In this document: positions 25,372-42,789 of the stretch, piece after piece | How positions within the stretch are numbered: position 1 is the first letter of the stretch | Layout: each line of letters starts with the position of its first letter | NCBI RefSeq assembly: GCF_024298825.1 | Contig: NZ_CP101153.1 | Span: forward strand, 1,054,001 to 1,118,000 | DNA from: Haloglomus salinum | GTDB taxonomy: Archaea > Halobacteriota > Halobacteria > Halobacteriales > Haloarculaceae | Length of the DNA stretch: 64,000 nt | Direction of reading: 5' to 3' | Notes under the pieces: model-generated | Seen by the model: only the letters and a program-made list of their open reading frames with translations | What the model was told of the DNA's origin: nothing | Database searches by the model: none | Program-made: the position numbers and the translations under genes

Positions 25372-25800
25372 TCAGTGCTTGTAGTTCGTCGGAATCGTGC
25401 TCGAGATGTCGGTGAGGTCGACCGCGGCCTCGGTGTACTGCATCACCTTCTGCATGTCCCCTTCCAGCTCGAAGACCCCGGACATCATCCCGTCGACAGC
25501 GCCGATATCGCCGTTGTTGAGGTCGATCCAGTCCGTGTACGCCCCCCGGAGCACGAAGCCGGCGTCGACCTCGTCCGGGTCGTCGACCTCCATCGCCTCG
25601 GTGGCCTCGCCGTCCTCCAGTCCGATGAAGAAGTACCGCGTCTCGGGCAGACGGCCGTCGGCCTCGATGACGTAGAGGAAATCACCGTTGAAGTCGACAC
25701 CCCACCCCGCGCCCGTCTCGGCGTAGCTCTCGCTGGCGTTGACGCGCTCCTTGTACTCCTTCATCCACTCCTCGCTGGGGAAGTCGAACTCCGCTGTCAT
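25372..25800 (-). CDS. SCP-2 sterol-carrier-like protein
   Basis: 142 residues, one SCP-2-like domain: FPSEEWMKEYKERVNASESYAE, FLYVIEADGRLPETRYFFIGL, the GAYTDWIDLNNGD loop and MSGVFELEGDMQKVMQYTEA. Such domains bind hydrophobic ligands in a tunnel; archaeal members have no known ligand and are often fused to or neighbours of lipid enzymes, none of which is evident here. Cytoplasmic. A TATA (gtttaacc) lies about 33 nt upstream. Confidence 0.85.
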   Translation of the reverse strand: MTAEFDFPSEEWMKEYKERVNASESYAETGAGWGVDFNGDFLYVIEADGRLPETRYFFIGLEDGEATEAMEVDDPDEVDAGFVLRGAYTDWIDLNNGDIGAVDGMMSGVFELEGDMQKVMQYTEAAVDLTDISSTIPTNYKH

Positions 25801-25829
25801 GGTGCGACGTACCGCACGTGTGGTCCGTG

Positions 25830-25837
25830 GTTAAACG
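25830..25837 (-). promoter_or_regulatory. TATA box of the SCP-2 gene
   Basis: Minus strand gtttaacc about 33 nt before the ATG at 25800, giving a very short 5' UTR. Confidence 0.5.
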
Positions 25838-25983
25838 TTCGGCCCTTCATACGACGTATCATTTAATCCAAAGTCGGACCGAGCGCGCGGTGGACAGTTC
25901 GGTCAGGGCAGGTGGGGTCGGTCGGAATCGCCGGAAACCGGCGGAGTAGCCGGTATAAACCGCCGGAGAGCACCCCCGCAACG

Positions 25984-25991
25984 CTTTATTA
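25984..25991 (+). promoter_or_regulatory. TATA box of the four-repeat membrane protein gene
   Basis: ctttatta centred about 35 nt upstream of the GTG at 26023; predicts transcription starting near 26014 and so excludes the in-frame GTG at 25993 as start. Confidence 0.5.
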
Positions 25992-26022
25992 GGTGGGGTT
26001 TACAAACGCTTGTAGACAGACA

Positions 26023-28059
26023 GTGACGCACAGCAACGTGTTTGGCCGTGCCGGGGTCGGTGGGAATCCCGGGCGCGGAGCGGACGGCCGGGTGGTGCTC
26101 GCGCTCCTCGGGGGACTCCTCGCGGGAGCACTGGCCGTGCTGGTGGCAACGGGCGTCGTCTCCGCACCCGACGGGATGGAGGGAATCCTGACGGCGGGGT
26201 CCGGAATGGCCATGAGCAGCGGGACGCAGAGTGCGACAGGGAACCGGAAACGGCGGGCGACGGCGTACGCCGGACTGACCGGCGCGCTGGCGGGAGCTGT
26301 GACGACCTACGTCGTCTCGGCGCTCCACCTCCGGTACATGGGAACCATCCTCCAGAGCGGGTCACCGACCCGTGGGATGTTCCTCTTCGGCGTCGTGGCG
26401 CTGGCGCTGACGGGCCTCTACACCGTCACCGGGGCGAAGTTCGTCGGCCGTGGTAGCGGGTTCGTCCGCCGGAGCGCGACGACGGGCCTCGCGTTCGGCG
26501 CCATCCTCGGCGGCCTGTTCAGTCTCTTCGTCGTGCCAGCGCTCATCGGAAGCACCCCGTCGAGCATCGATCCGGCGCCGACCGGCGTCGTCCTCGGCTG
26601 GGCCGTCTTCGGTCTGGTGATGGGAACGACCTACGCCAGCGTCCTCTCGGAGCAGCCGGTGCTCCCGGCGTACGTCCGCCGGAACGGGACCCGGGCCGTC
26701 GCGAGTTCACTCGCCGGCGTCTACCTCGGCGGCCTCGCGCTGCTCGTCATCCGCCCGCCGCATCTCCGCTTCGTCGGCACCATCATCGCCAGCGGGACCC
26801 AGCAGCGCGGGCTGGTCTTCCTCCTCCTCATCGGCCTGTTGCTGACGCTGACCGTCTCGCGTGTGGCCGGCCTGCGAGCCGAGCAGGCACCGTTCTCGAC
26901 CGGCGTCTTCGCCGGCATCGGCATGACCGTCTTCGGCCTGTTCGTCGTGCCCGCGCTCGTCAGCGCCATCGGTGGCTGGCCGCTGCAGGTGCCCATCGGC
27001 TACTTCCCCATCGCCTTCGGCTACTTCCTGTTCGGGCTCGGAACGGCCGCCGCGTACGGCCTGCTCCGGCGCCGCGAGATCGACCTCGTTACCGACATCC
27101 GCAGCACTGCGACCCTGAAGGGACTCCTGGCCGGCGGCACCGTCGGCGGCGTGCTGCTCTACATCCTCGCACAGCCGCACCTCCTCTGGCTGGGCACCAT
27201 CCTCCGGTCAGGTAGCACCGGGCGCGGCTTCCTCGCGTGGTTCATCGTCTGCCTGCCACTCGCGGTCATCATCGCAGCGGTCCCGGGACGCCGGTTCGAA
27301 GCCGGGACGAGCAGCTTCGACGCCGGCACCACGGGACTCATCTACGGCCTCGTGTACGCCATCGTCGCCGGCGCCGCGCTCGTGCCCACGGTCATCGACG
27401 GCGTGACCCCGCTCCAGCCGTATCCCGCGCCGTACGTCGGTCTGGGACTGCTCGCGTACGTCGCATTCGGCTTCGTGTTCGCCGCCGTCTACCGTGACAG
27501 CCTCCCGCTGGGTGAGCCACAGACCGACTTCGACGCCGTCGGCACCAGCGTCGGCTCGCGCCGCGCCCGTGCCTACCTGTTCGGCTCCGCCTTCGGCGGC
27601 CTCGTCGGTGGGCTCACCATCTACCACCTCGGCGGCCCGGTGTACATGCGCTACATCGGCTCGCTGTTCAAGATGGGTGGGAGCTTCGAGATGGCCTGGG
27701 TCGCGTGGTTCGTCCTCGCGCTGGTGCTGGGCCTCCTGTTCGTCGCGCTCCTGCGGAACAAGCTCGACGACTACGTCAACAGCCTCATCATGACCACCTC
27801 GCGGAACAAGGATTTACGCCAGCTCCTCCAGCCCGCACTGAAGCAAGCCTCGGTCACCACCACTGCGACGGCGGTCGGCCTGGCCTACGGCGTCGCGCTG
27901 GCGGTCGTCCTCGGGGCGGTGGGCCTGCCGCTGCTGGTCGAGAACCTCACCGCGTTCTCGATGGGGCCCGCCCCGAACCTCGACGGCGGTACGCTCCTCG
28001 GGTTCGTCCTCTACGGGGGCTTCCTCGGTGCCGGCTACGGACTCATGCTGGAGTTCTGA
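26023..28059 (+). CDS. Polytopic membrane protein built of four ~145-residue repeats
   Basis: 678 residues from GTG 26023 (26038 also possible). Not a family I recognise. Almost wholly hydrophobic, with about 16-18 membrane segments. Four units repeat: each has motif A, (R/W)(Y/F/L).G(T/S)(I/L)..SG...RG, at residues about 107, 252, 391 and 546 (YMGTILQSGSPTRG, FVGTIIASGTQQRG, WLGTILRSGSTGRG, YIGSLFKMGGSFEM), followed 50-60 residues later by motif B, a hydrophobic stretch ending VPAL or VPTV, a Pro-rich loop and an FG...G..Y helix. Conserved charged and Gly positions inside repeats suggest a transporter or channel-like fold. Single gene with own promoter and terminator. Confidence 0.75.
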   Translation: MTHSNVFGRAGVGGNPGRGADGRVVLALLGGLLAGALAVLVATGVVSAPDGMEGILTAGSGMAMSSGTQSATGNRKRRATAYAGLTGALAGAVTTYVVSALHLRYMGTILQSGSPTRGMFLFGVVALALTGLYTVTGAKFVGRGSGFVRRSATTGLAFGAILGGLFSLFVVPALIGSTPSSIDPAPTGVVLGWAVFGLVMGTTYASVLSEQPVLPAYVRRNGTRAVASSLAGVYLGGLALLVIRPPHLRFVGTIIASGTQQRGLVFLLLIGLLLTLTVSRVAGLRAEQAPFSTGVFAGIGMTVFGLFVVPALVSAIGGWPLQVPIGYFPIAFGYFLFGLGTAAAYGLLRRREIDLVTDIRSTATLKGLLAGGTVGGVLLYILAQPHLLWLGTILRSGSTGRGFLAWFIVCLPLAVIIAAVPGRRFEAGTSSFDAGTTGLIYGLVYAIVAGAALVPTVIDGVTPLQPYPAPYVGLGLLAYVAFGFVFAAVYRDSLPLGEPQTDFDAVGTSVGSRRARAYLFGSAFGGLVGGLTIYHLGGPVYMRYIGSLFKMGGSFEMAWVAWFVLALVLGLLFVALLRNKLDDYVNSLIMTTSRNKDLRQLLQPALKQASVTTTATAVGLAYGVALAVVLGAVGLPLLVENLTAFSMGPAPNLDGGTLLGFVLYGGFLGAGYGLMLEF

Positions 28060-31594: not shown

Positions 31595-33643
31595 TCAGTG
31601 CTGGCGGCGGGCGAGGAGGGCCGCCGCGACGAGTGCGACGAGCGCTGCCACGGCGCCGAAGCCGGGCTGACCGTCGCTGGAGGTGCCGCCGTCGCCACCG
31701 TCACCGCCATCACCGCCGCCCGCGGTGGGCGTCGGGGTCGGTGCCTCGAGCCCGAGGTAGTCGTACGCGCGCTCGGTCTCCATCTCGGGGAACGAGCGGT
31801 CGTACGACCCGGGCATGTTGACGGTGGTGTCCTCGTCGACCACGGAGAGTTCGCGGACGGCGCTCTCACCGGCGCCGGCCTCGACTGCACCCGTGACGTA
31901 GACGTACTGGTTCAGCGAGCCGCTCTCGTTGGACCGGCCGACGACCTGACTGACCGAGAGGTCGAGCCGACCGGACTGCTGGAGCACGTCGCGGAACGCG
32001 GCCATGTCCTCGAACTTCGCGCCCGCCTCGAAGGTGACGTTCCCTTCGCTGACGCTGACGTCGGTGCGGGCCTTCTGGAAGCCAGCCTCGCGGAAGGCGC
32101 GGACGAACTGTCGGGCCTGTTCGACGTCCTCGTCGGTCGCGTTCTGGGTCTCCGTCGCGTTGAGGAACTGGTCGACGGCGGTGTCGACGAGGTCCTCCTG
32201 CTCGACGCTGAGCGACCCGTTCGCGACGATCTGGTCACCCGACGTATCGGCGGCCAGCGAGAACTCCTGGTTCGCGACCGGAATGTCGCGGCTCTGGAGT
32301 TCGCTCACGTAGGCCCCCCAGTTCTCCGTCCGGGACTGGGCCTGCAGCTCGATGACCGCCAGCGAGCTGGACTCCAGAGTGTGCGAGGCACTCAGCGAGT
32401 ACGTCCGAGTGAGGTCGGCGGCCTGCTGAGCTTCGATCTGTGCGCGGAGCGTTTCGAGCTGGTCCGGCTGGACGGGAGGGACCTCCTGCTCCGGCGGCGA
32501 GTACGCTGCCGCCGCATCGAGGCCGGCCAGCAGGGCGTCGTTGTAGTTCTCGAGCTGGAAGTCGAAGCTGCCCTCGACGGACTGGGCCTGCATCCGGAAG
32601 TCAGCCGCGATGCGCTCGATCTCCAGCTGCGTCACGTTCGCGGCGATGCCCGATGCGGCCTCGCGCGAGAGGTTGAACTGCTCGGAGTTGGCGAGGTAGG
32701 CCGCCGCCTGCCGTTCCAGCCCCTCGTCGACGCCCTCGTACTCGACCGTGTAGTCCACGTCGAGCCGGTAGACGCCACGCTGGCTGGCGTTGGCGAAGGC
32801 GTAGGAGTTCAGCGTGACCGTGGCACTACCACCGAGCTGCTCGGCGACGCTCGCGTAGCGCTGTCGGATGGTCTGCCGGGCGCGCTCCTCGGTGTCCCAC
32901 TGGTCCTTCGAGAATTCGCGGATGGTCTGGTTCTGGGCTGCCTCCAGCGTGTACGTGCCCTCACCCTCGACCAGTTCGAAGGAGCCCGACATCGGCTGAC
33001 CGAGCTGCGTCGACGTCTGGGCGTTCAGGCTCCCGGTGGCATCGAACGAGTTCGGCGCGACCGTCGCCTCTAGCGACGTGTCGGCGGACTCGACGAGCCG
33101 CAGCGACGGCGCACTCCGTGTGGCGACAGCCACCCGGCCGTCCGCGTCGAAGCGGTTGTTCTCCTGGGTCCGGACGGCGTCGACCGTGAGGCTCAGGTCC
33201 TCGATGGCCTGCGGGCGGACAGTCGTCAGTTCACCCTCGGCAGTCAGGGCACCGGGCTCGAGCACTGCCTGCGCCGACCCCGTCGCGTTCGGGGTCTCCT
33301 CGAGGTCGCTCACGATGAGCCCGTAGAAGATGCCCTGCCCGACATGGAGCCCGTACTCGCCGTTCGTCAGTTCGGATTCCGTGCCGGTCTCCTGTTCGGT
33401 CTCGTCCTCGTAGTAGAGGATGGCGTCGCCGTTCTCCTTGACGTAGATCTCATCGGCGACGTCGAGTGTCTGATTGCCGGTACTGTCGTCGTCCTCCTGA
33501 AGGGACTGCTGCGCCGGGTCGTCCGCTGCCGCGACTGCAGCACCGGCACCCGCACCGATGGCCATACTCGAGACCATCAGCAGGGCGACCAGTGCAACAA
33601 CCACCCGTCGCCAGTACCCCGCGGAGGGAGTTGCGTCATCCAT
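31595..33643 (-). CDS. PGF-CTERM surface protein
   Basis: 682 residues from the ATG at 33643. N-terminal Sec-type signal (about residues 12-38, VVVALVALLMVSSMAIG...AAA). The secreted part is Asn/Gln/Thr-rich with more than ten N-glycosylation sequons and no cysteine; it has a long beta-rich body, with helical tracts (DQFLNATETQNATDEDVEQ). At the C terminus are a Thr/Pro/Gly linker (TPTPTAGGGDGGDGG), the PGF tripeptide (GQPGFGAV), a membrane helix and a final RRQH: the PGF-CTERM signal cleaved and lipid-modified by archaeosortase A. Hence a lipid-anchored S-layer-associated protein of unknown function. Confidence 0.85.
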   Translation of the reverse strand: MDDATPSAGYWRRVVVALVALLMVSSMAIGAGAGAAVAAADDPAQQSLQEDDDSTGNQTLDVADEIYVKENGDAILYYEDETEQETGTESELTNGEYGLHVGQGIFYGLIVSDLEETPNATGSAQAVLEPGALTAEGELTTVRPQAIEDLSLTVDAVRTQENNRFDADGRVAVATRSAPSLRLVESADTSLEATVAPNSFDATGSLNAQTSTQLGQPMSGSFELVEGEGTYTLEAAQNQTIREFSKDQWDTEERARQTIRQRYASVAEQLGGSATVTLNSYAFANASQRGVYRLDVDYTVEYEGVDEGLERQAAAYLANSEQFNLSREAASGIAANVTQLEIERIAADFRMQAQSVEGSFDFQLENYNDALLAGLDAAAAYSPPEQEVPPVQPDQLETLRAQIEAQQAADLTRTYSLSASHTLESSSLAVIELQAQSRTENWGAYVSELQSRDIPVANQEFSLAADTSGDQIVANGSLSVEQEDLVDTAVDQFLNATETQNATDEDVEQARQFVRAFREAGFQKARTDVSVSEGNVTFEAGAKFEDMAAFRDVLQQSGRLDLSVSQVVGRSNESGSLNQYVYVTGAVEAGAGESAVRELSVVDEDTTVNMPGSYDRSFPEMETERAYDYLGLEAPTPTPTAGGGDGGDGGDGGTSSDGQPGFGAVAALVALVAAALLARRQH

Positions 33644-33908
33644 TGTATTGTCACCTGTCGACCCCGTGGTTACACGGCAGGCCCCCGGAGACGTGACAGC
33701 AGTCACGCGGGTAGGGGATGGGGACCGGCGTCCTCGATTTCGGACGCGTTCGTCAACCGGTTCTAGCTGTCCCTACATAAACATTCGTGGGATGGAGTGA
33801 CGATAGCAACCAGTAACCAACCGACACCACCACCAGCGACCGCCGCCTCCAGGCACCACCCGGACGGCGCCGGAAGGAGTATCCCCCGCTCGCACCTATG
33901 GATGGGTG
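33644..33908. other. Intergenic spacer upstream of the PGF-CTERM gene
   Basis: No gene seen. Minus-strand gtttatgtag near 33775-33783 is a plausible TATA for the PGF-CTERM gene with a 5' UTR of about 105 nt; nothing closer looks convincing. Confidence 0.3.
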
Positions 33909-34936: not shown

Positions 34937-35345
34937 TGTGAGACACAGTAGCACGAGCCAGCTATTTGAGGGTTTGCTGGCACCACCTATGACACCTTAT
35001 ACTATACATATATTTCCATACCAGAGAATATTCACGAGAATGGAGCCACATACACCCACTCTTCCACGATATTCCAGCAGTAAATATGCCATCCGTCGAT
35101 GATGAACGGCCGTTCAGACAGTGGATGGACAGGCGCGGGCAGCAGGTGATTTCCAGCGACGTTCCAGCCACGAGGCTGTCACCGACCCATCCCTGAAGGA
35201 CGTGGCGACCACCCGGGATAGCGCGGCGGAACCGCAACGGAAACGACCAGCACACCCGCCGAAACCGGCCGTCGTGGCGGCAACAGCCGGGCGAGGCCCG
35301 TGATGGCCACGCAGTTTATGCCTCGTGGCCCCCTCGTCGGGGACG
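34937..35345. other. AT-rich intergenic island
   Basis: 409 nt with no convincing gene. Positions about 34960-35100 are strikingly AT-rich for this genome (for example ttatactatacatatatttcc), and a perfect 14-bp palindrome tgaacggccgttca lies at 35103-35116. The right end carries the promoter of the large surface gene. Composition suggests a promoter or foreign DNA; I see no ORF that reads as protein. Confidence 0.5.
35314..35320 (+). promoter_or_regulatory. TATA box of the second large pilin-like gene
   Basis: gtttatg centred about 29 nt before the ATG at 35346; leaderless or nearly so, which supports that ATG over the upstream GTG. Confidence 0.55.
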
Positions 35346-36986
35346 ATGAACGGAAGACCCTCACGGGGGCAGGCGACGATCGGGTTCGCGCTTATCGTCG
35401 GCATCGCCCTCATCGGGGTCGTGACCGTGGTGGCACTCGGCGCAACGGCCCTGACCGATATCCAGACCTCGTCGGGGACCGGTGCCGCCGAGCAGGCGAT
35501 GACGCAGTTCGACTCCAAGACCTCCCAGGTCGCCCTCGGGGACTCGAACACCCAGACCGTCAGCGTCGGGCAGACCGCGGGCAGCTATCAGGTCGACCCC
35601 GACGCCGGCTACGTCCAGGTCGTCCACATCGACTACGACGGGAACTGGCAGGACGACGGGGACAACCTCCCGAACTCGGCTCCCCCCGGCGACGAGGACG
35701 AGGAGGTCATCTACGAGTCCACGCTGGGGACGGTCCGCTACCAGCGCGGTGACACGACCATCGGCTACCAGTCCGGTGGCGTCTGGAAGCGGACAGGGCA
35801 GGGTCAGAGCACGATGGTCTCCCCGCCGGAGTTCCACTACCGTGGCTCGACGCTGACGTTCCCGGTCGTTCGCGTGAACCAGCTCGGTGGGGGAACCCAG
35901 AGCGGTTCCGGCGCCATCGACCTCCGGGTACAGCAGTCCGACGAGCCGCGCAGTGTCTTCCCGAACCAGTCGGTCGCGTACCCTGACACGAACGGGAAGA
36001 GCAATGGTGTCTACAGCAACCCCTCGGAGAACGGGACCGTCGTCGTCTACATCGAATCCGAGTACTACCAGGCCTGGGCAAACTACTTCGAGGACCGCAC
36101 CGACGGCCGCATCCAGACCAGCGACACCGGCGGCTCACTCCTCAACGGCTACCCCGCCGACCCCAACGGCGACGGTGAAACCGGGCAGCTCGTCGCGGTC
36201 GAACTCGTCAGTACCGGGCGCACCGGCGCGTTCAACATGCCGGGCGACGGCTCCGCTCTCGAGGTCTCCGGCGTCGCCGACCACTCGATGTCGAGTTTCG
36301 ACATCACGCTCACCCCGGACAAGGCCGACAGCGCGAACTTCAACAACCTCCAGTGGTCGATGTACGCCGACGACGGGGGGCAGGAGTTCGAGATGCACGT
36401 CCGCAAGGACGGGGGCGGTGGGAAATGTGACACCCAGGAGTTCGCGGTCCGGATCTTCTACTCGCCCGCAGGGACGGACAAGTACCACGGCTGGGAGGAA
36501 GACGGCATCACGGGCAACTGCGTCGACGCCGACGGCGAGGACGGAGCGGACGAGATCGAACTCTCGCTCACCTTCGTCGACGACGACGACGGCGACGACC
36601 TGCCCCGTGAGGACAACGGCGACGAGAACGACATGCAACTCGAGTACACCTCGCTCTCGAACAACGCACTGATCCACTTCGACGCGAGCGGGCGGTCGCT
36701 CAAATCCAACCCGACGTTCGACCAGCACGGGGACACGCAGGGTGACGCAGATCCGGTGACGTGGGAGCCGGTGAGCTATTCGACCGGCGACGAGGAGTCC
36801 AGCGACGGCCTCGTCAACCACTACTTCTCCCTGCTGGGGCCCGGGTTCGACCTGACGGTCGACGACAGCAACAACAACGGGGTCCAGGAGAGTGCCTCCG
36901 CCGGCAACATCCAGTACACGGGCGGTGACGAGTTCATCACCTACGTCCACCTCTCGGAGAACGATGTCGAGGTCACCGTCGACTGA
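35346..36986 (+). CDS. Large pilin-like surface protein, paralogue of the one at 4052-6319
   Basis: 546 residues. N terminus RGQATIGFALIVGIALIG... is a class III (prepilin) helix cleaved after RG. The first 250 residues parallel the 4052-6319 protein: MTQFDSKTSQVALGDS versus LTQLDAKAARVALGDS, SGGVWKRTG versus GGGVWRGTG, and SPPEFHYR..TLTFPVV versus SPPEFHYR..TLTLPLV, with EYYQAWANYFEDRTDG matching the yvAWADYFRDRIDG block. The second half is very acidic and probably calcium-binding (DDDDGDDLPREDNGDENDMQ). Two cysteines (KCDTQEF and GNCVDADG) may bond. It faces the pilus operon, convergent with its last gene. Confidence 0.8.
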   Translation: MNGRPSRGQATIGFALIVGIALIGVVTVVALGATALTDIQTSSGTGAAEQAMTQFDSKTSQVALGDSNTQTVSVGQTAGSYQVDPDAGYVQVVHIDYDGNWQDDGDNLPNSAPPGDEDEEVIYESTLGTVRYQRGDTTIGYQSGGVWKRTGQGQSTMVSPPEFHYRGSTLTFPVVRVNQLGGGTQSGSGAIDLRVQQSDEPRSVFPNQSVAYPDTNGKSNGVYSNPSENGTVVVYIESEYYQAWANYFEDRTDGRIQTSDTGGSLLNGYPADPNGDGETGQLVAVELVSTGRTGAFNMPGDGSALEVSGVADHSMSSFDITLTPDKADSANFNNLQWSMYADDGGQEFEMHVRKDGGGGKCDTQEFAVRIFYSPAGTDKYHGWEEDGITGNCVDADGEDGADEIELSLTFVDDDDGDDLPREDNGDENDMQLEYTSLSNNALIHFDASGRSLKSNPTFDQHGDTQGDADPVTWEPVSYSTGDEESSDGLVNHYFSLLGPGFDLTVDDSNNNGVQESASAGNIQYTGGDEFITYVHLSENDVEVTVD

Positions 36987-37028
36987 GCACGCCCCGGCGG
37001 ACACCGGGGACCGACGGCGGACTGTTCC

Positions 37029-38090
37029 TTACCGGTAGATGACGTCCACACGCGTCGCCGTGGAATAGACGTTCTCGGCGGCGAGGCTGCACTCGACGGT
37101 CTCGGTCGTGGAGTCGCCGTCGATCTCGATGATGTCACAGGCCCCGGACCCGGCGCGGGCATCGAAGCTGCCGCCGGCCGCGGTGACCTGCTCCTCCAGG
37201 TAGTCGAGCCAGATATCGCTCCGTTTCTCCGAGGTCTGGATGCGGACCGTGACGTTGTACTCCTTGCTGCCGTCACCGTCGGGGTCGAGGTCACCGTAGT
37301 CGTTAACACCGTCGCCGTCGGAATCGAGATTCCCGTACTCGTGGTTGCCGTCGTTGTCGGGATCGAAATCGCTGATCTCGTCGGTTCCGTCGCCATCGAA
37401 ATCGGGGTTGATTCTGAACTCGTTGGCGTCGTCTCCGGTAGTGTTGAATCTGAGAGTCTCTGGGTCGTCCTGGGCGATGGTGACCTCACGGGTGGCCAGC
37501 AACGTCCGCACGAGGACGGTTCGCTGGCTCCCGGTACTCTCGGGGCCGGTGTTCCGTGTCTCGATGACCGGCAGGATGAGCGTCTTCTCGGCGGCAGCGG
37601 CGTCATAGGTGAGCAGGAACGGCGGGTTCTTGTCCAGCACGGCGCCACTTGGGTCCTCACGGAACAGCGCGCCGTTCGAGTACAGGAGGTCGGTCCCGCC
37701 CTCGGCGGAGTAGACGATCGGCCGGTACTCGACGACTGAGGTGTTGCCGGTCCCCTTCATGTTCCGTATCGTGATGTTGGCCCGGACGGAGTCACCGAAC
37801 TCCATCTGCGCGTCGGAGACCTTGATCTCGGTCGCCCGGCTCGGCGCCGCCTGCCGGTGGATGTCCCCGATGTTGTCCGCGAGCACGTCGAACGCACGCT
37901 CGGCGTTGTTCACCTGCTCGGCCGAGCGGGTGTCCTCCAGCCCGCCGATACCGGAGACGTACACCAGCGCGACGGTCGCGGCGATGAGCGAGAAGATGAG
38001 TGCGAAGCTGATGACCTCGCTCACGCCGCGGTCGGTGTCCCCCCCACCGTCCGGCGCGAACGCGCCGCGGGAGCGAGGGCGGTCAGACAT
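37029..38090 (-). CDS. Pilin-like protein with TSP3/calcium-type repeats (DUF7289-like)
   Basis: 353 residues. N terminus DTDRGVSEVISFALIFSLIA: prepilin-type site RG|VSEV with a hydrophobic helix. Residues 60-200 follow the DUF7289-like pattern (NNAERAFDVLADNIGDIH). At about 229-278 come four ~13-residue acidic repeats (PDFDGDGTDEIS, DFDPDNDGNHEYG, NLDSDGDGVNDYG, DLDPDGDGSKEYN), the EF-hand-like/thrombospondin type 3 calcium pattern. Last gene of the pilus operon, overlapping the previous gene by 8 nt. Probably a surface subunit whose stability depends on Ca2+ (inference). Confidence 0.82.
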   Translation of the reverse strand: MSDRPRSRGAFAPDGGGDTDRGVSEVISFALIFSLIAATVALVYVSGIGGLEDTRSAEQVNNAERAFDVLADNIGDIHRQAAPSRATEIKVSDAQMEFGDSVRANITIRNMKGTGNTSVVEYRPIVYSAEGGTDLLYSNGALFREDPSGAVLDKNPPFLLTYDAAAAEKTLILPVIETRNTGPESTGSQRTVLVRTLLATREVTIAQDDPETLRFNTTGDDANEFRINPDFDGDGTDEISDFDPDNDGNHEYGNLDSDGDGVNDYGDLDPDGDGSKEYNVTVRIQTSEKRSDIWLDYLEEQVTAAGGSFDARAGSGACDIIEIDGDSTTETVECSLAAENVYSTATRVDVIYR

Positions 38091-38541
38091 TACGGACCAC
38101 CAGTTCGTCGTCGCCATCCGGGTTGTAGACGACCTCGATATCCCCGCCGTCGACCGAGGTCTGTTCGAGGCCGCCGGGGGCGAACTGTGCCTCGACATCG
38201 ACGCGGACCGTCACCTCCGGCTCGGCCGAGGTCAACCGGAGATGCGTCTCTCCACTCGTCACCACCGCCACCGTGTAGGCCGAACCGGTCACCCGATCCG
38301 GGAGGTTGCGCTGGACCCGGATGTTCGACGCGTCCGTGCCCACGAGCCGGTCCGCCGAAGCGATGTCGGCGGCGATCTGATGCCCGATGACCGTCAGCTC
38401 CGAGCGGGTGCTCGTGACGCGCTGGTCCTGCAGGAACCCGCCACCAGCGATGAGCAGGCCGGAGATGAGCAGCGCCGAGATGCCAAGCGAGAGAGCGTAC
38501 CCGACGGTCGTCGAGACGGCCCGGTCGTCGAACTCACGCAT
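38083..38541 (-). CDS. Minor pilin-like protein (DUF7266-like)
   Basis: 152 residues. N terminus DDRAVSTTVGYALSLGISALLISGLL is a classic haloarchaeal pilin helix (AVSxxVGyAL). The remainder is a small beta domain without cysteine (TVAVVTSGETHLRLT). Overlaps the next gene's start by 8 nt and follows the 413-residue gene by 21 nt; same operon. The DUF number is from memory. Confidence 0.82.
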   Translation of the reverse strand: MREFDDRAVSTTVGYALSLGISALLISGLLIAGGGFLQDQRVTSTRSELTVIGHQIAADIASADRLVGTDASNIRVQRNLPDRVTGSAYTVAVVTSGETHLRLTSAEPEVTVRVDVEAQFAPGGLEQTSVDGGDIEVVYNPDGDDELVVRNV

Positions 38542-38562
38542 CGTGGTCCACCCCCACCGCGC

Positions 38563-39804
38563 TCACGGCTCGTTCGGCGCCACCGTCACGTTCGATTCGT
38601 AACTCATGGAGTCCGACTGGTAGTCGAGGCTGACGTCGGCCGAGTAGATGGCCGGTTCGATGTAGGGGCTGTCGGGGCCGTACGGCGAGGTGTGCGCGGA
38701 TGGGTCGGGGTGGGGCTGGTAGATATCCCCGAACACCGGGTCGTCCGACAGGAGCCCGAACAGGTCCAGTTCCAGGATATTCAGGCTGTCGTACCCGTTC
38801 TCGAAGCTGGTGGTCGACTCGTCGACGACGAGTTCGTAGTTCCCGGCGACCTGGTCGCCCTGGACGAAGAACAACTGGTACGACCCGGAGATTTCGGACT
38901 GGAACGCGAAGACGTCCCTGCAGGCACCGTCGTCTCCCTCCACCCGCCCGTTCGAGACATCGACAGTGAACGTGCTGTCTACGTCCTGGACCGTGCAGGT
39001 GCGCGTCGTCCCGGACCCGTCGTAGCGGTAGTACGTGATGTTCACGTCGTCGGGGTCCGCGTCCGAACGGTAGATGGCGAAGGAGTGGTCGACCTCGCCG
39101 GTGTCGCCGACATCGTAGACCACGGTGAACGGCGGGTCGTCGAACGACAGGTCGCCGATTCCGACCAGTTCGTCCCCGTCGCCACCCGTCTCCAGTTCCA
39201 GACCGGCCTGGAACGTTTCGATAACGCTGGCCTCGATTCCCAGCAGCGTATCGTCCCCGCGCAACTGGTCGGGGTCGATGTCCATGCTGAAGTCCCGAAC
39301 CTGTGTCGCCCCGGGCGTCACTGACCAGTACTCCACGTTGATGGAACTGAGCAGCCCCGTCGTGAGGTCGACACTCACGACCGCGTCCGACTCCTCCGGC
39401 TCGAACGTCCCACCGTCGTCCTGCGTGATGCGCGTCCCGCGCGTGTACGGGTCGGTATCCACCACCCGTACGTCCACGTACTGCCCCTCGCGAGCGCTGT
39501 CGCGGACGGTCCAGTCCGACCAGCTGTCGATGGCGTCCTCGAAGTCGTTCTCCAGATTCCCGTACGACGCGTGCGAGTCGACATCGTGGTGGATGTGTTC
39601 CATCGCGACGCCGGCACCCTGTGTGGCCTCCCGTTCCAGCGTCACGATCTGACCGCTCTCCTGCTGGTTCGCGCGGGTCGCGAGGTTCTCCGCGTAGATG
39701 GAGGCGTTCAGGACCAGCGCGATACCCACGAGGACGATCGCGAGCGACAGCGCTCCGACGAGGATGAGCTGCCCGTTTTCCTGCCGCTCGCGAACGTCCC
39801 ACAT
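38563..39804 (-). CDS. Pilin-like protein (DUF7261-like), copy 1
   Basis: 413 residues. N terminus ENGQLILVGALSLAIVLVGI, then ALVLNASIYAENLATR, a class III helix ending in the AENLATR motif also found in the neighbour at 39874-41286; the two are paralogues. The body is secreted beta structure with Ig-like spacing and a single cysteine region (CTVQDVDS, CRDVFAF). A 69-nt gap before it could hold an internal promoter. Probably a minor pilin. Confidence 0.82.
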   Translation of the reverse strand: MWDVRERQENGQLILVGALSLAIVLVGIALVLNASIYAENLATRANQQESGQIVTLEREATQGAGVAMEHIHHDVDSHASYGNLENDFEDAIDSWSDWTVRDSAREGQYVDVRVVDTDPYTRGTRITQDDGGTFEPEESDAVVSVDLTTGLLSSINVEYWSVTPGATQVRDFSMDIDPDQLRGDDTLLGIEASVIETFQAGLELETGGDGDELVGIGDLSFDDPPFTVVYDVGDTGEVDHSFAIYRSDADPDDVNITYYRYDGSGTTRTCTVQDVDSTFTVDVSNGRVEGDDGACRDVFAFQSEISGSYQLFFVQGDQVAGNYELVVDESTTSFENGYDSLNILELDLFGLLSDDPVFGDIYQPHPDPSAHTSPYGPDSPYIEPAIYSADVSLDYQSDSMSYESNVTVAPNEP

Positions 39805-39873
39805 AGCTCGTTCGTGCGGTGAATGCGCTTCGAGCCGATATGCCTTTCGGCCATACTGGTGATAGCCGGCGAT

Positions 39874-41286
39874 TCATAACGGGCACGCCCCGCTGGTGTC
39901 GGTATCGCCGTCGGCGTCGTGGGTCACGGTCCGGGTGCGCTCGGCCATCCCGTCGGTGACGGTCACGGCCAGGTCATAGGTGTTGTCCCAACCATCGGTG
40001 TCGGTGACAGAGAGGCTCCCCGTCTCCGACTCGCCCCCGATATCAGCGTCGTCTGTGTCGTCGGTGTCGACGACGGTCCCGGAGCTATCCACCAGCTCGA
40101 GGGTGACCTCGTCCAGATCGCCGTTCGGGTCCTCGACGGTCCAGGCGACGGTGAACGAGGCGTCCCCGTCGGTGGCGGAGTTGTCGGTCACGTCGAGCGA
40201 GGTGACCAGCGGCGTGTCCAGAGAGTCACCGGCCTGTTCGGGGACGACCTGTACCGTCGCGTCGCTCTCGGCCCCCTGGCTCCGGTAGCTCAGGTCGACC
40301 GTCCCGGCGTAGATGGCGGGGGCGCTGTACGGGGCGTTGCCGACCGTGGCGGCGTACGTGGTCCCGCTACAGGCGGCGCCGTAGTTCACGCGGTCGACCT
40401 GCTCGTCGAGGGATTCCTCGGAGGCGGACGGCCCGTCGGTCCGGTCGACGACGAGCCGGTAGGTCCCCATCGCCAGGTCGCCGTTGGTGACGTTCACCTC
40501 GTACGTGCCGCTCGCCTCGGCAACCGGACCGAGCGCGTCGCAGTACGCGCCGTCGACGGTCGGCCGCCCGGTCAGCGAGACGGTGGCGTCCCCGCCCTCG
40601 GCGTCGCACTCGCGGACGGCACCGGAGCCGACCTCACTGACCGCGACCCGAACAGTCGAGTCGTCGCTGTCCTCGTAGACGGCCACCTCGTGGGCCGTCC
40701 CCGTCGCGGCCGTCAGCGTCACCTCGAACGCGTCGCCGGTTCCGCCCGTCAGCTGGGTCGTGACCTCGCTCGTCGAGTCCGGTTCCGTCGGCTCGGCCGT
40801 CAGCTCGAACGCACGGATGTGAGCCGACGCGACCATCGTCCAGTCGCCGGCGGTCGTCGTCGCGTCACGGGGCGTGAAGTCGGTGCTCGCGTCGCCATCG
40901 ACGATCTGGGTCCCCGGACGGCTCCCGTCAGTCGTCAGCTGGATGGCCTCGCCATCGAGCGACCGACGATTGGCGAGCTGGTCGGCCAGTATCTCGACCC
41001 GGGGCTGGTAGCGGTCGTCCCGAAGGGTGGCGAACGACTCGCCGGCACGGTCCTGGTTCGTGCTCCCGATGGCGTCTCCGACCCCGTCAGCGACCGTGCT
41101 ACGGAACTCCTGGACCTCGGCGCTGGCGCCGCCGCTCTGTCGCGTCGCGAGGTTCTCGGCGAAGATGGAGCCGTTCAGTACCAGCGCGATGCCGATGAAT
41201 ATCATCGCGAGCACGATGCCACCGAGGAGGAGCAACTGGCCTCGGGCGGAATCTCGCCGGCCGGACCGCGCCGTCACATCCGCCAC
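39874..41286 (-). CDS. Pilin-like protein (DUF7261-like), copy 2
   Basis: 470 residues. Class III signal ARGQLLLLGGIVLAMIFIGI then ALVLNGSIFAENLATR, paralogous to copy 1. The C-terminal half contains Ig/CARDB-like extracellular domains (SLDVTDNSATDGDASFTVAW, DLDEVTLELVDSSGTVVDTD) and ends DTSGACPL. Its C-terminal ~85 residues also resemble the C-terminal domain of the 4052-6319 protein (VTDN...W...D.NGDL..V). Start overlaps the preceding gene's end by 13 nt. Confidence 0.82.
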   Translation of the reverse strand: MADVTARSGRRDSARGQLLLLGGIVLAMIFIGIALVLNGSIFAENLATRQSGGASAEVQEFRSTVADGVGDAIGSTNQDRAGESFATLRDDRYQPRVEILADQLANRRSLDGEAIQLTTDGSRPGTQIVDGDASTDFTPRDATTTAGDWTMVASAHIRAFELTAEPTEPDSTSEVTTQLTGGTGDAFEVTLTAATGTAHEVAVYEDSDDSTVRVAVSEVGSGAVRECDAEGGDATVSLTGRPTVDGAYCDALGPVAEASGTYEVNVTNGDLAMGTYRLVVDRTDGPSASEESLDEQVDRVNYGAACSGTTYAATVGNAPYSAPAIYAGTVDLSYRSQGAESDATVQVVPEQAGDSLDTPLVTSLDVTDNSATDGDASFTVAWTVEDPNGDLDEVTLELVDSSGTVVDTDDTDDADIGGESETGSLSVTDTDGWDNTYDLAVTVTDGMAERTRTVTHDADGDTDTSGACPL

Positions 41287-41912
41287 GCGACCACCTCGAC
41301 GCGTACCACGTTGTACAGCCCGTCCGAGTCCGGGAGGTCGGGCGCGTAGAAGTCGCTCTTCCCCCAGCCGTCGCCCGGGCTGTCGTCATCCAGACACCGG
41401 CTTTCGTCGGTTGTCTCGTCTTCGTTCAGCATGCAGTCGCTGTCGTACAGCGTCACCGTCCGCGAGGCGCTGATGGCGTTGTCGCTCGGCCGGCCACGGT
41501 AGACCATCCGCTGGGTCACCCACGACCCGCTGCCGCCCTGGTAGGAGACGTAGACGTTGTACGCGATGGCGCGACCGCCGTACGCCATCGAGAGTGCCTC
41601 GCCGAACTCGTTGTCCGGTGGCCCGTTCGTGTAGTAGACGCCGGGGGCGCCGTAGAAATTGAACTCATCGTCGCTGTCCTTGTCGCCCCAGAACAGTACC
41701 GCATCCTTCAGGTGGTCGTCCTCGGCCGAGACCGCCAGCACGCCGTCGGCGACGGACTGCATCTGGTTCTCGATATGCTGGCTGGACGTACTGGCCGATA
41801 GCGGTGTCACGGCGGTCACCTGCAGGGCGAACGTCAGGCTCGACAGCAGCAGGATGGCCGCCACGACACCCTCCAGCGTGTGGGCCTGCCCACGGTCGCG
41901 GCTCACGGGCAC
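41274..41912 (-). CDS. Pilin-like protein (DUF7288-like)
   Basis: 212 residues. Signal RDRGQAHTLEGVVAAILLLSSL: class III site RG|QAHT. Conserved opening (HTLEGVVAA) is typical of a haloarchaeal pilus-operon family. The secreted part is polar with two cysteines (DSDCMLNEDE, ESRCLDDDSP) likely disulphide-linked. Ends VRVEVVAWRM. Operon position between the DUF7287-like gene (55-nt gap) and copy 2 of the DUF7261-like pair. Confidence 0.82.
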   Translation of the reverse strand: MPVSRDRGQAHTLEGVVAAILLLSSLTFALQVTAVTPLSASTSSQHIENQMQSVADGVLAVSAEDDHLKDAVLFWGDKDSDDEFNFYGAPGVYYTNGPPDNEFGEALSMAYGGRAIAYNVYVSYQGGSGSWVTQRMVYRGRPSDNAISASRTVTLYDSDCMLNEDETTDESRCLDDDSPGDGWGKSDFYAPDLPDSDGLYNVVRVEVVAWRM

Positions 41913-41967
41913 ACCTCGCGTGGACGCACGATAGGTACCGGTTCGGAGCGAGTGTACAAGTACCTCA

Positions 41968-42789
41968 TCACCACACCCGTACGTAGACGGTCGCTCGGAT
42001 GCCGTCGATGGTCACGATTCGCCGAGCCACAACGACCGAGCCGGAGTCCTCGGGCGGGTCCTCGCCGGCCTGGAAGGGGACATCGTAGTCGCCGTCCGAA
42101 GCGCCACAGTCAACCGACCCCGTGGTGTCGAAGGCCCCGTCCGGCGATTCGACGATTGTAGATGTGACGTTCGGATACTGATTCGAGTCGGGGTCCTCGT
42201 TCGCCTCGAGGCAGAGCAGGTTCCGCGTCTCGTTTCCGTCGGCGTCGCCCCGGATCTCGATCTGCAGTCCCGGCGAAAGTGCCCTGCTGACGCTCCCGTC
42301 GTCGGCGATTCCGGCGATACCGAGCCGCGCGTGGAGGTAGTCGGAGTCATCGGGTTGGGACACCTCGAAGTTGCAATCGTTGTTCTTCCAGAGGTTGGCT
42401 CGCGAGATGTCGAATCGATCCCGTGTCAGTTGGTCGTCGTTCGAGGTATTCAGGTCCTCGTCGTTGTCGGGGTCACCGTCGAGGTTCTCCGGCGCGAAGA
42501 ACGCGACCGTGCACGCCTTGTCCAGCACGTACGGCTTCCCGGGGTCGGCCAGCGTTCCCTCGACGAGCTGGCTGGCCACGCGGTTCGCGATGATGGTGTC
42601 CTCGGTGCCGCTGTCGGCGAACGGTTGGATGAGGTTCGGTGTGAACGAGATGACGAACGCGACCGAGATGAGAAAGAGGCTCATCCCGACCGCGAAATCG
42701 AGCGTCGTCTGCCCGCGGCTTCGCCCGTCGTCGTCGCTGGGGCCGGGTGTGTCGCCGCGTGCGTCGAACGTGGGGGGCCTTGCCTGCAT
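41968..42789 (-). CDS. Pilin-like protein (DUF7287-like)
   Basis: 273 residues. Signal RSRGQTTLDFAVGMSLFLIS: class III site RG|QTTL. The remainder is a long extracellular beta domain with NxS/T sequons and paired cysteines (KACTVAF, NDCNFEV). It starts 7 nt after the pilC stop, so it is tightly coupled to the assembly genes. First of six prepilin-type proteins after pilC. Confidence 0.82.
   Translation of the reverse strand: MQARPPTFDARGDTPGPSDDDGRSRGQTTLDFAVGMSLFLISVAFVISFTPNLIQPFADSGTEDTIIANRVASQLVEGTLADPGKPYVLDKACTVAFFAPENLDGDPDNDEDLNTSNDDQLTRDRFDISRANLWKNNDCNFEVSQPDDSDYLHARLGIAGIADDGSVSRALSPGLQIEIRGDADGNETRNLLCLEANEDPDSNQYPNVTSTIVESPDGAFDTTGSVDCGASDGDYDVPFQAGEDPPEDSGSVVVARRIVTIDGIRATVYVRVW

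Follow-up and report, generated by a model that had tools for sequence, protein, structure and literature searches.

A haloarchaeal membrane protein composed of tandem four-helix modules and encoded head-to-head with an SCP2-family gene in Haloglomus salinum

The window analysed here, a stretch of 64,000 nucleotides from Haloglomus salinum (contig NZ_CP101153.1, positions 1,054,001 to 1,118,000), carries a gene for a membrane protein in which a sequence-only reading had noticed a fourfold internal repeat, and this raises the question of what the repeated unit is, whether the number four is fundamental to the protein and what the protein may do. The open reading frame proposed in that reading (26023..28059, plus strand) is real; it starts with GTG, encodes 678 amino acids and has orthologues over its full length in three other genomes, with 96, 87 and 84% identity. 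The two of these genomes that are named are Haloglomus halophilum and a Halobacteriales MAG, and the nearest named relatives of the protein belong to Haloglomus. An alternative in-frame GTG at position 25993 would yield a product of 688 amino acids, but the start at 26023 is favoured by the similar N-terminal segment (MTTSNAH, VTTSKAH or VTHSN) found in several homologues. The G+C content of the gene by codon position, 0.68/0.51/0.90, fits a haloarchaeal gene.

The two motifs on which the repeat had been recognised are found once in each unit: the first, G[TS][IL] and then a stretch rich in Gly and Ser, at residues 107, 252, 391 and 546, the second, resembling VPAL, at residues 171, 309, 454 and 635. 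Units 3 and 4 have variant forms (WLGTILRSG and RYIGSLFKMGG). The counts of the two motifs were matched in 0 and 4 of 2000 composition shuffles, with expressions that had been written after the sequence was known. A hidden Markov model of the module was built from nine proteins of one module each, all encoded at other loci and none of them the window protein; some of its rows are near-identical and one carries an N-terminal extension of the reading frame. It matches the window protein with 104 bits, a score that comes from unit 4 alone, while the best of 500 shuffled sequences reached 6.7. Unit 4 is matched whole, including the long linker between the second and third transmembrane segments (TM2 and TM3), and with this score against a model made from other loci it is a member of a haloarchaeal module family.

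The matches of the model lie at residues 83-133 and 154-208 in unit 1, 225-277 and 302-348 in unit 2, 362-421 and 437-490 in unit 3, and 507-677 in unit 4. Units 1-3 match in halves because about 40 model positions, corresponding to the TM2-TM3 linker, are absent from them. The six half-matches score 5.1, 8.6, 10.0, -0.4, 11.1 and 4.6 bits; taken individually they are weak, and such weight as they have would lie in their regular, in-register order. Profile-profile comparison of the unit positions, with three sequences per unit, supports five of the six pairs (E 2e-4 to 1e-10), namely units 1 and 2 (3e-9), 1 and 3 (1e-10), 2 and 3 (1e-9), 3 and 4 (2e-7) and 1 and 4 (2e-4); the comparison of units 2 and 4 gave no support (E 0.11). 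Four repeat units are thereby confirmed, unit 4 by the model and units 1-3, which are shorter and diverged copies, mainly by the profile-profile comparison. Chance similarity of motifs was rejected as an explanation on the basis of the model, the profile-profile comparison and the composition shuffles.

All four units lie on the plus strand. Unit 1 (26242..26661) and unit 2 (26674..27090) have a short linker and are placed by profile-profile comparison and by a tree of units, unit 1 also by its weak half-matches; the second half of unit 2 is not significant by the model and had no match in the comparison of unit architectures. Unit 3 (27106..27492), also with a short linker, is assigned from weak half-matches and profile-profile comparison, and unit 4 (27541..28056), the complete module with the long linker, from the model, an AlphaFold2 model of the unit and the tree. 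The proposed repeat length of about 145 residues fits, unit 4 being longer, at about 170. Hydropathy analysis called 15 transmembrane segments and missed TM1 of units 1 and 4; when these two are added, there are four segments per unit and one further segment at the N-terminus (residues ~20-60, 26080..26202, plus strand). Thus, the fourfold repeat was borne out, and the protein has in addition a transmembrane segment before unit 1 which the sequence-only reading had not mentioned.

The description of the protein as unrecognised also holds, since nothing exceeded a Pfam or NCBIfam cut-off and no significant match to the unit turned up in the PDB, by sequence or, with a model of unit 4, by fold. 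A Pfam scan of the whole protein and of its units returned no family over its cut-off, transporter families included, and an NCBIfam scan of the whole protein returned no match. DUF6789 (PF20587; cut-off 27.1 bits) did not match the whole protein and scored best with unit 3, at 13.4 bits; DUF1440 (PF07274; cut-off 34.7 bits) was absent among the matches of the window protein and its units. Weaker relatives with short linkers (L020, L022 and L023) reached at best 23.4 bits for DUF6789, 23.2 for DUF1440 (L022) and 16.2 for YqhR (PF11085), all below the cut-offs. These three families are likewise uncharacterised small membrane proteins. Membership in DUF6789, DUF1440, YqhR, MscL, MgtE or Peptidase_M50 was rejected, each being below its cut-off or absent from the Pfam results, and the repeat protein is an unnamed variant among the small four-helix membrane proteins of haloarchaea. 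A sequence profile search of the PDB (alignment A2) gave one match at chance level (E 0.58).

The AlphaFold2 model of unit 4, made from 20 alignment rows, has a pLDDT of 81.6 and a pTM of 0.76. Its best Foldseek match in the PDB has an E value of 1.5, and the best VIA match is FtsX with a Z score of 5.2, followed by Insig (4.5) and a heme exporter (4.4), scores within the stated background for helical models; from the fold searches with this model it follows neither that the fold is new nor that it is known. The model of the full-length protein, from a five-row alignment, has a pLDDT of 34.8, so that the packing of the units is not readable from it; that they pack around a common axis is a presumption. 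Among titles and abstracts on SCP2, lipids, the related DUFs and Haloglomus, few subscription journals being covered, none deals with the repeat protein.

The module is not unique to the window gene, as single-module relatives are found in many genomes of the order. By sequence comparison, the window protein is best described as a tandem fusion of a haloarchaeal four-helix module that elsewhere forms a separate protein of ~160-210 amino acids. The module profile matches 250 of 392 genomes of the order at an E value of 1e-5, with 49 genes in 43 genomes scoring above 100 bits and only weaker matches in the other 207 of the matching genomes. Of 148 genomes sampled from the phylum, 15 match, and all of these belong to the order of the window; no match was found in the 11 genomes listed from elsewhere in the phylum, and 113 further genomes without a match are not itemised. 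A scan of genome contigs returned four loci only, and none of 33 candidate stretches of viral contigs proved to be a relative.

Among the relatives the number of modules is one, two, three, four or five; the listing of architectures omits 13 loci, 12 of them duplicates of listed loci and the other being L043 (G359). L075 has one complete and one weaker module, and the proteins of L067-L069 have three complete modules, all keeping the long linker. Four modules occur in Halorarius (L033 and L034) in the order long-short-short-long, referring to the linkers, and in the window genus, L072 and L074 in the order short-short-short-long, while L066, L070, L071 and L073 have five modules (long-short-short-short-long). 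Four- and five-unit forms are present in 8 of the 392 genomes. The five-unit proteins of L066 (G018), L070, L071 and L073 resemble the window protein in the order of unit types and in having an SCP2 gene head-to-head, but differ in their complete first unit and show ~30-38% identity to it. L067-L069 and L075 likewise have several modules per chain, though L067 ends in a C-terminal DUF6114 domain (by Pfam, scanned in L010, which is the same gene). Near the single modules of L077, L078, L083 and L084, DUF6230-like and DUF6114-like reading frames occur within a few kb; both domains are confirmed by Pfam in L084 only.

The genome of H. salinum itself contains a second module gene, L002, which encodes a single-module protein of 165 amino acids. 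Like unit 4, it is a complete module with the long linker, and its identity to unit 4 is 33%; unlike the repeat protein, it consists of one unit and lies beside hydantoinase A/B genes, with no head-to-head SCP2 gene. Its locus, at about 2.12-2.14 Mb (L076:7925-13086 and L085:54-8306), has the hydantoinase A/B genes adjoining (Pfam), followed by two AMP-binding-like reading frames recognised by eye. Farther along, the reading frame L085:15878-16636 has a low-complexity start made almost entirely of Gly-Val repeats and may be no gene.

The fourfold count is present in the window protein, but it is not supported as the basic symmetry of the family: some homologues are built from five units, to which most of the window units can be related. 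In a tree of 39 units (support given as ultrafast bootstrap/SH-aLRT), window unit 1 and L066 unit 2 form a pair (97/90), as do window unit 2 and L066 unit 3 (95/90); window unit 4 is placed with the fifth units (93/86), its neighbour being the last Halorarius unit (99/87). Window unit 3 has no resolved partner, and by order it corresponds to unit 4 of the five-unit relatives. In the five-unit proteins, the first units are grouped separately from the rest (97/93). Not all of the tree fits a simple picture: units 2, 3 and 4 of the L070-L073 group cluster by position among themselves and are not joined to those of L066 and the window protein, and 13 of 36 inner branches are left open. Since three of the window units (1, 2 and 4) have their counterparts in units 2, 3 and 5 of five-module proteins, the number four is probably a secondary state, and on the simplest reading of the tree an ancestor with five units would have lost its first unit to give the window protein. 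The N-terminal transmembrane segment might then be a remnant of that unit, and its alignment to TM1 of the unit model is suggestive only: with the unit model, 5-21 of 300 shuffles scored as high as the segment of the four orthologues, which is not significant, and with a model of first units 12-82 of 300 did.

The closest indication of function comes from the neighbouring gene. Head-to-head with the repeat gene, on the minus strand (25372..25800), lies a gene whose 142-residue product matches the SCP2 family (PF02036) over residues 68-124 with 27.1 bits, the cut-off being 21.3. SCP2 proteins are nonspecific lipid carriers. The two divergent genes have in common an intergenic region of 222 bp (25801..26022, read by eye), in which a TTTATTA sequence is visible by eye at 25985-25991, upstream of the repeat gene. 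Neither the SCP2 gene at this region nor a link to lipids had figured in the sequence-only reading, which credited the repeat gene with a promoter and a terminator of its own. That assignment is not upheld: scans for promoters and terminators of bacterial type, which are unsuited to archaea, gave no match at the gene, and its upstream region is common with the divergent gene.

The adjacency is conserved. When only the module matches above 100 bits are counted (49 genes in 43 genomes, weaker matches being excluded), an SCP2 match lies within 3.5 kb of at least 24 of the 49 genes, against about 0.18 expected from the number of SCP2 matches and a genome of 3.9 Mb. Among the SCP2 matches listed, 25 of the 49 have none within this distance; these 25 include the three-unit genes of G023, G049, G246 and G359 and the single-unit paralogue of H. 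salinum, for which the nearest one listed is ~11.7 kb away. For genes with four or five units, SCP2 adjoins in all eight such genomes among the 392 and, over all such genomes covered, in 11 of 12, the exception being G031. By tblastn, SCP2 relatives were found beside the repeat gene in L031-L033, L065, L066 and L069-L074, and near single modules in L009/L079, L013, L014/L084, L052-L056, L064 and L082; no SCP2 relative was found by this search in the locus stretches of L034, L067, L068, L075-L078, L080, L081 and L083. The arrangement is head-to-head in the window, L031-L033, L065, L066, L069-L074 and L079, convergent in L082, L084, L090 and L091, and co-directional in L089 and L092. Thus, the adjacency is kept while the gene order changes. 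At the level of whole genomes, an SCP2 relative is present in 42 of the 43 with a strong module versus 58 of the 349 without. As the genomes are related to one another, these counts, and the P values given here, overstate independence.

Some single-module copies lie among genes of acyl-CoA metabolism. In L082 the module gene is surrounded by genes for an AMP-binding enzyme, an acyl-CoA dehydrogenase, an SCP2 protein and a protein resembling ribonucleotide reductase R2 (all by Pfam), by two further SCP2-like genes found by tblastn, one of which gave no match when scanned with Pfam, and by a ferredoxin-like reading frame seen by eye. Inspection by eye of L087-L092 showed acyl-CoA-synthetase-like and acyl-CoA-dehydrogenase-like reading frames in all six, with R2-like and ferredoxin-like ones in L090 and L091 only. 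By the same means, no acyl-CoA, R2-like or ferredoxin-like genes were seen around L077, L078, L080 and L081. The arrangement of L082 and L087-L092, which recurs in genomes of several families, resembles a catabolic locus for acyl compounds or hydrocarbons; it includes a small acidic reading frame, with SCP2-like genes in most of its instances and SDR-like reading frames in some, as judged by eye outside L082.

A further association is with wax ester synthesis. According to passages of a 2025 report (PMC11948995), halophilic archaea contain wax esters, carriers of the WS/DGAT wax ester synthase include Haloglomus and Halorarius, and Natronomonas grows on long-chain fatty acids. The wax ester synthase family TIGR02946 is found over its cut-off in 14 of the 392 genomes, among them seven of the eight with a four- or five-unit protein (hypergeometric P 1e-10, which ignores kinship), G354 being without it; the enzyme is also present in all four further genomes with such a protein, giving 11 of 12 overall. 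Seven of the 14 wax ester synthase genomes have no strong module and 13 have an SCP2 relative, and the link may therefore run via SCP2 or common ancestry. In H. salinum both wax ester synthase genes are more than 600 kb from the repeat gene, which makes this a case of co-occurrence and not of linkage.

Taken with the SCP2 adjacency, these contexts suggest, with a probability of roughly 0.45, that the repeat protein is a membrane component that passes acyl or neutral lipid substrates between the membrane and SCP2. It would sit at the cytoplasmic membrane, handle long-chain acyl or neutral lipid substrates and allow them to enter or leave the bilayer, handing them to, or taking them from, the soluble SCP2 carrier encoded head-to-head; after SCP2, the next stations of the substrate would be acyl-CoA synthetases, beta-oxidation or wax ester synthesis. 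On this scheme we infer that the module interacts with SCP2, that its substrate is a lipid and that it moves lipids rather than anchoring or organising enzymes. It is doubtful whether the protein is, beyond this, a dedicated archaeal membrane conduit through which long-chain fatty acids or precursors of wax esters pass, arisen as a five-copy fusion of the four-helix module working with the SCP2 carrier that is encoded from the shared intergenic region, and in the window since deprived of its first unit.

The modules could instead form a channel or transporter for small solutes or ions, the four or five copies surrounding one pore as a pseudo-oligomer, a possibility raised in the sequence-only reading, with the lipid genes nearby being incidental or co-regulated. 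The coexistence of single-module proteins and tandem fusions is what would be expected of a homo-oligomer turned into a single chain, and Gly-rich helices with repeated motifs are in keeping with this, but a unit number varying from one to five argues against a strict fourfold pore, and the strong linkage to SCP2 also speaks against a channel, which is unlikely. Equally improbable is a structural scaffold that keeps SCP2 and the acyl-CoA enzymes attached to the membrane or a lipid inclusion and moves no substrate. Acyl-CoA synthetase, acyl-CoA dehydrogenase and SCP2 genes do adjoin some single modules (partly by eye), the alignments, inspected by eye, contain no conserved motif of catalytic appearance, and genomic linkage cannot tell transport from scaffolding; however, some sixteen transmembrane segments would be a large investment for an anchor, and the retention of the loop motifs in every unit suggests more than anchoring, neither point being decisive. 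That the protein scrambles or flips the ether lipids of the cell itself, although compatible with an all-helical membrane protein beside a nonspecific lipid carrier, is very improbable, because a housekeeping scramblase is expected to be near universal, whereas a strong module occurs in 43 of 392 genomes and four- or five-unit forms in 8, and because the linkage is to acyl-chain catabolism and not to isoprenoid lipid synthesis.

If the repeat protein does pass lipids between the membrane and SCP2, it would concern a step for which the passages of literature covered offered no account, namely the movement of such substrates across or out of an archaeal membrane. A membrane protein encoded beside SCP2, and tracking wax ester synthase, provides a concrete gene pair for testing. 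With its one to five modules per chain, the family would clearly exemplify how copies of a membrane subunit become joined in one polypeptide, with later loss of a unit.

The other identified neighbours of the repeat gene in the window include no lipid genes. A gene at 31595-33706 encodes a PGF-CTERM protein (Pfam), and positions 35325-42789 are occupied by a run of reading frames, mostly on the minus strand, several of which have pilin-like hydrophobic N-termini as judged by eye.
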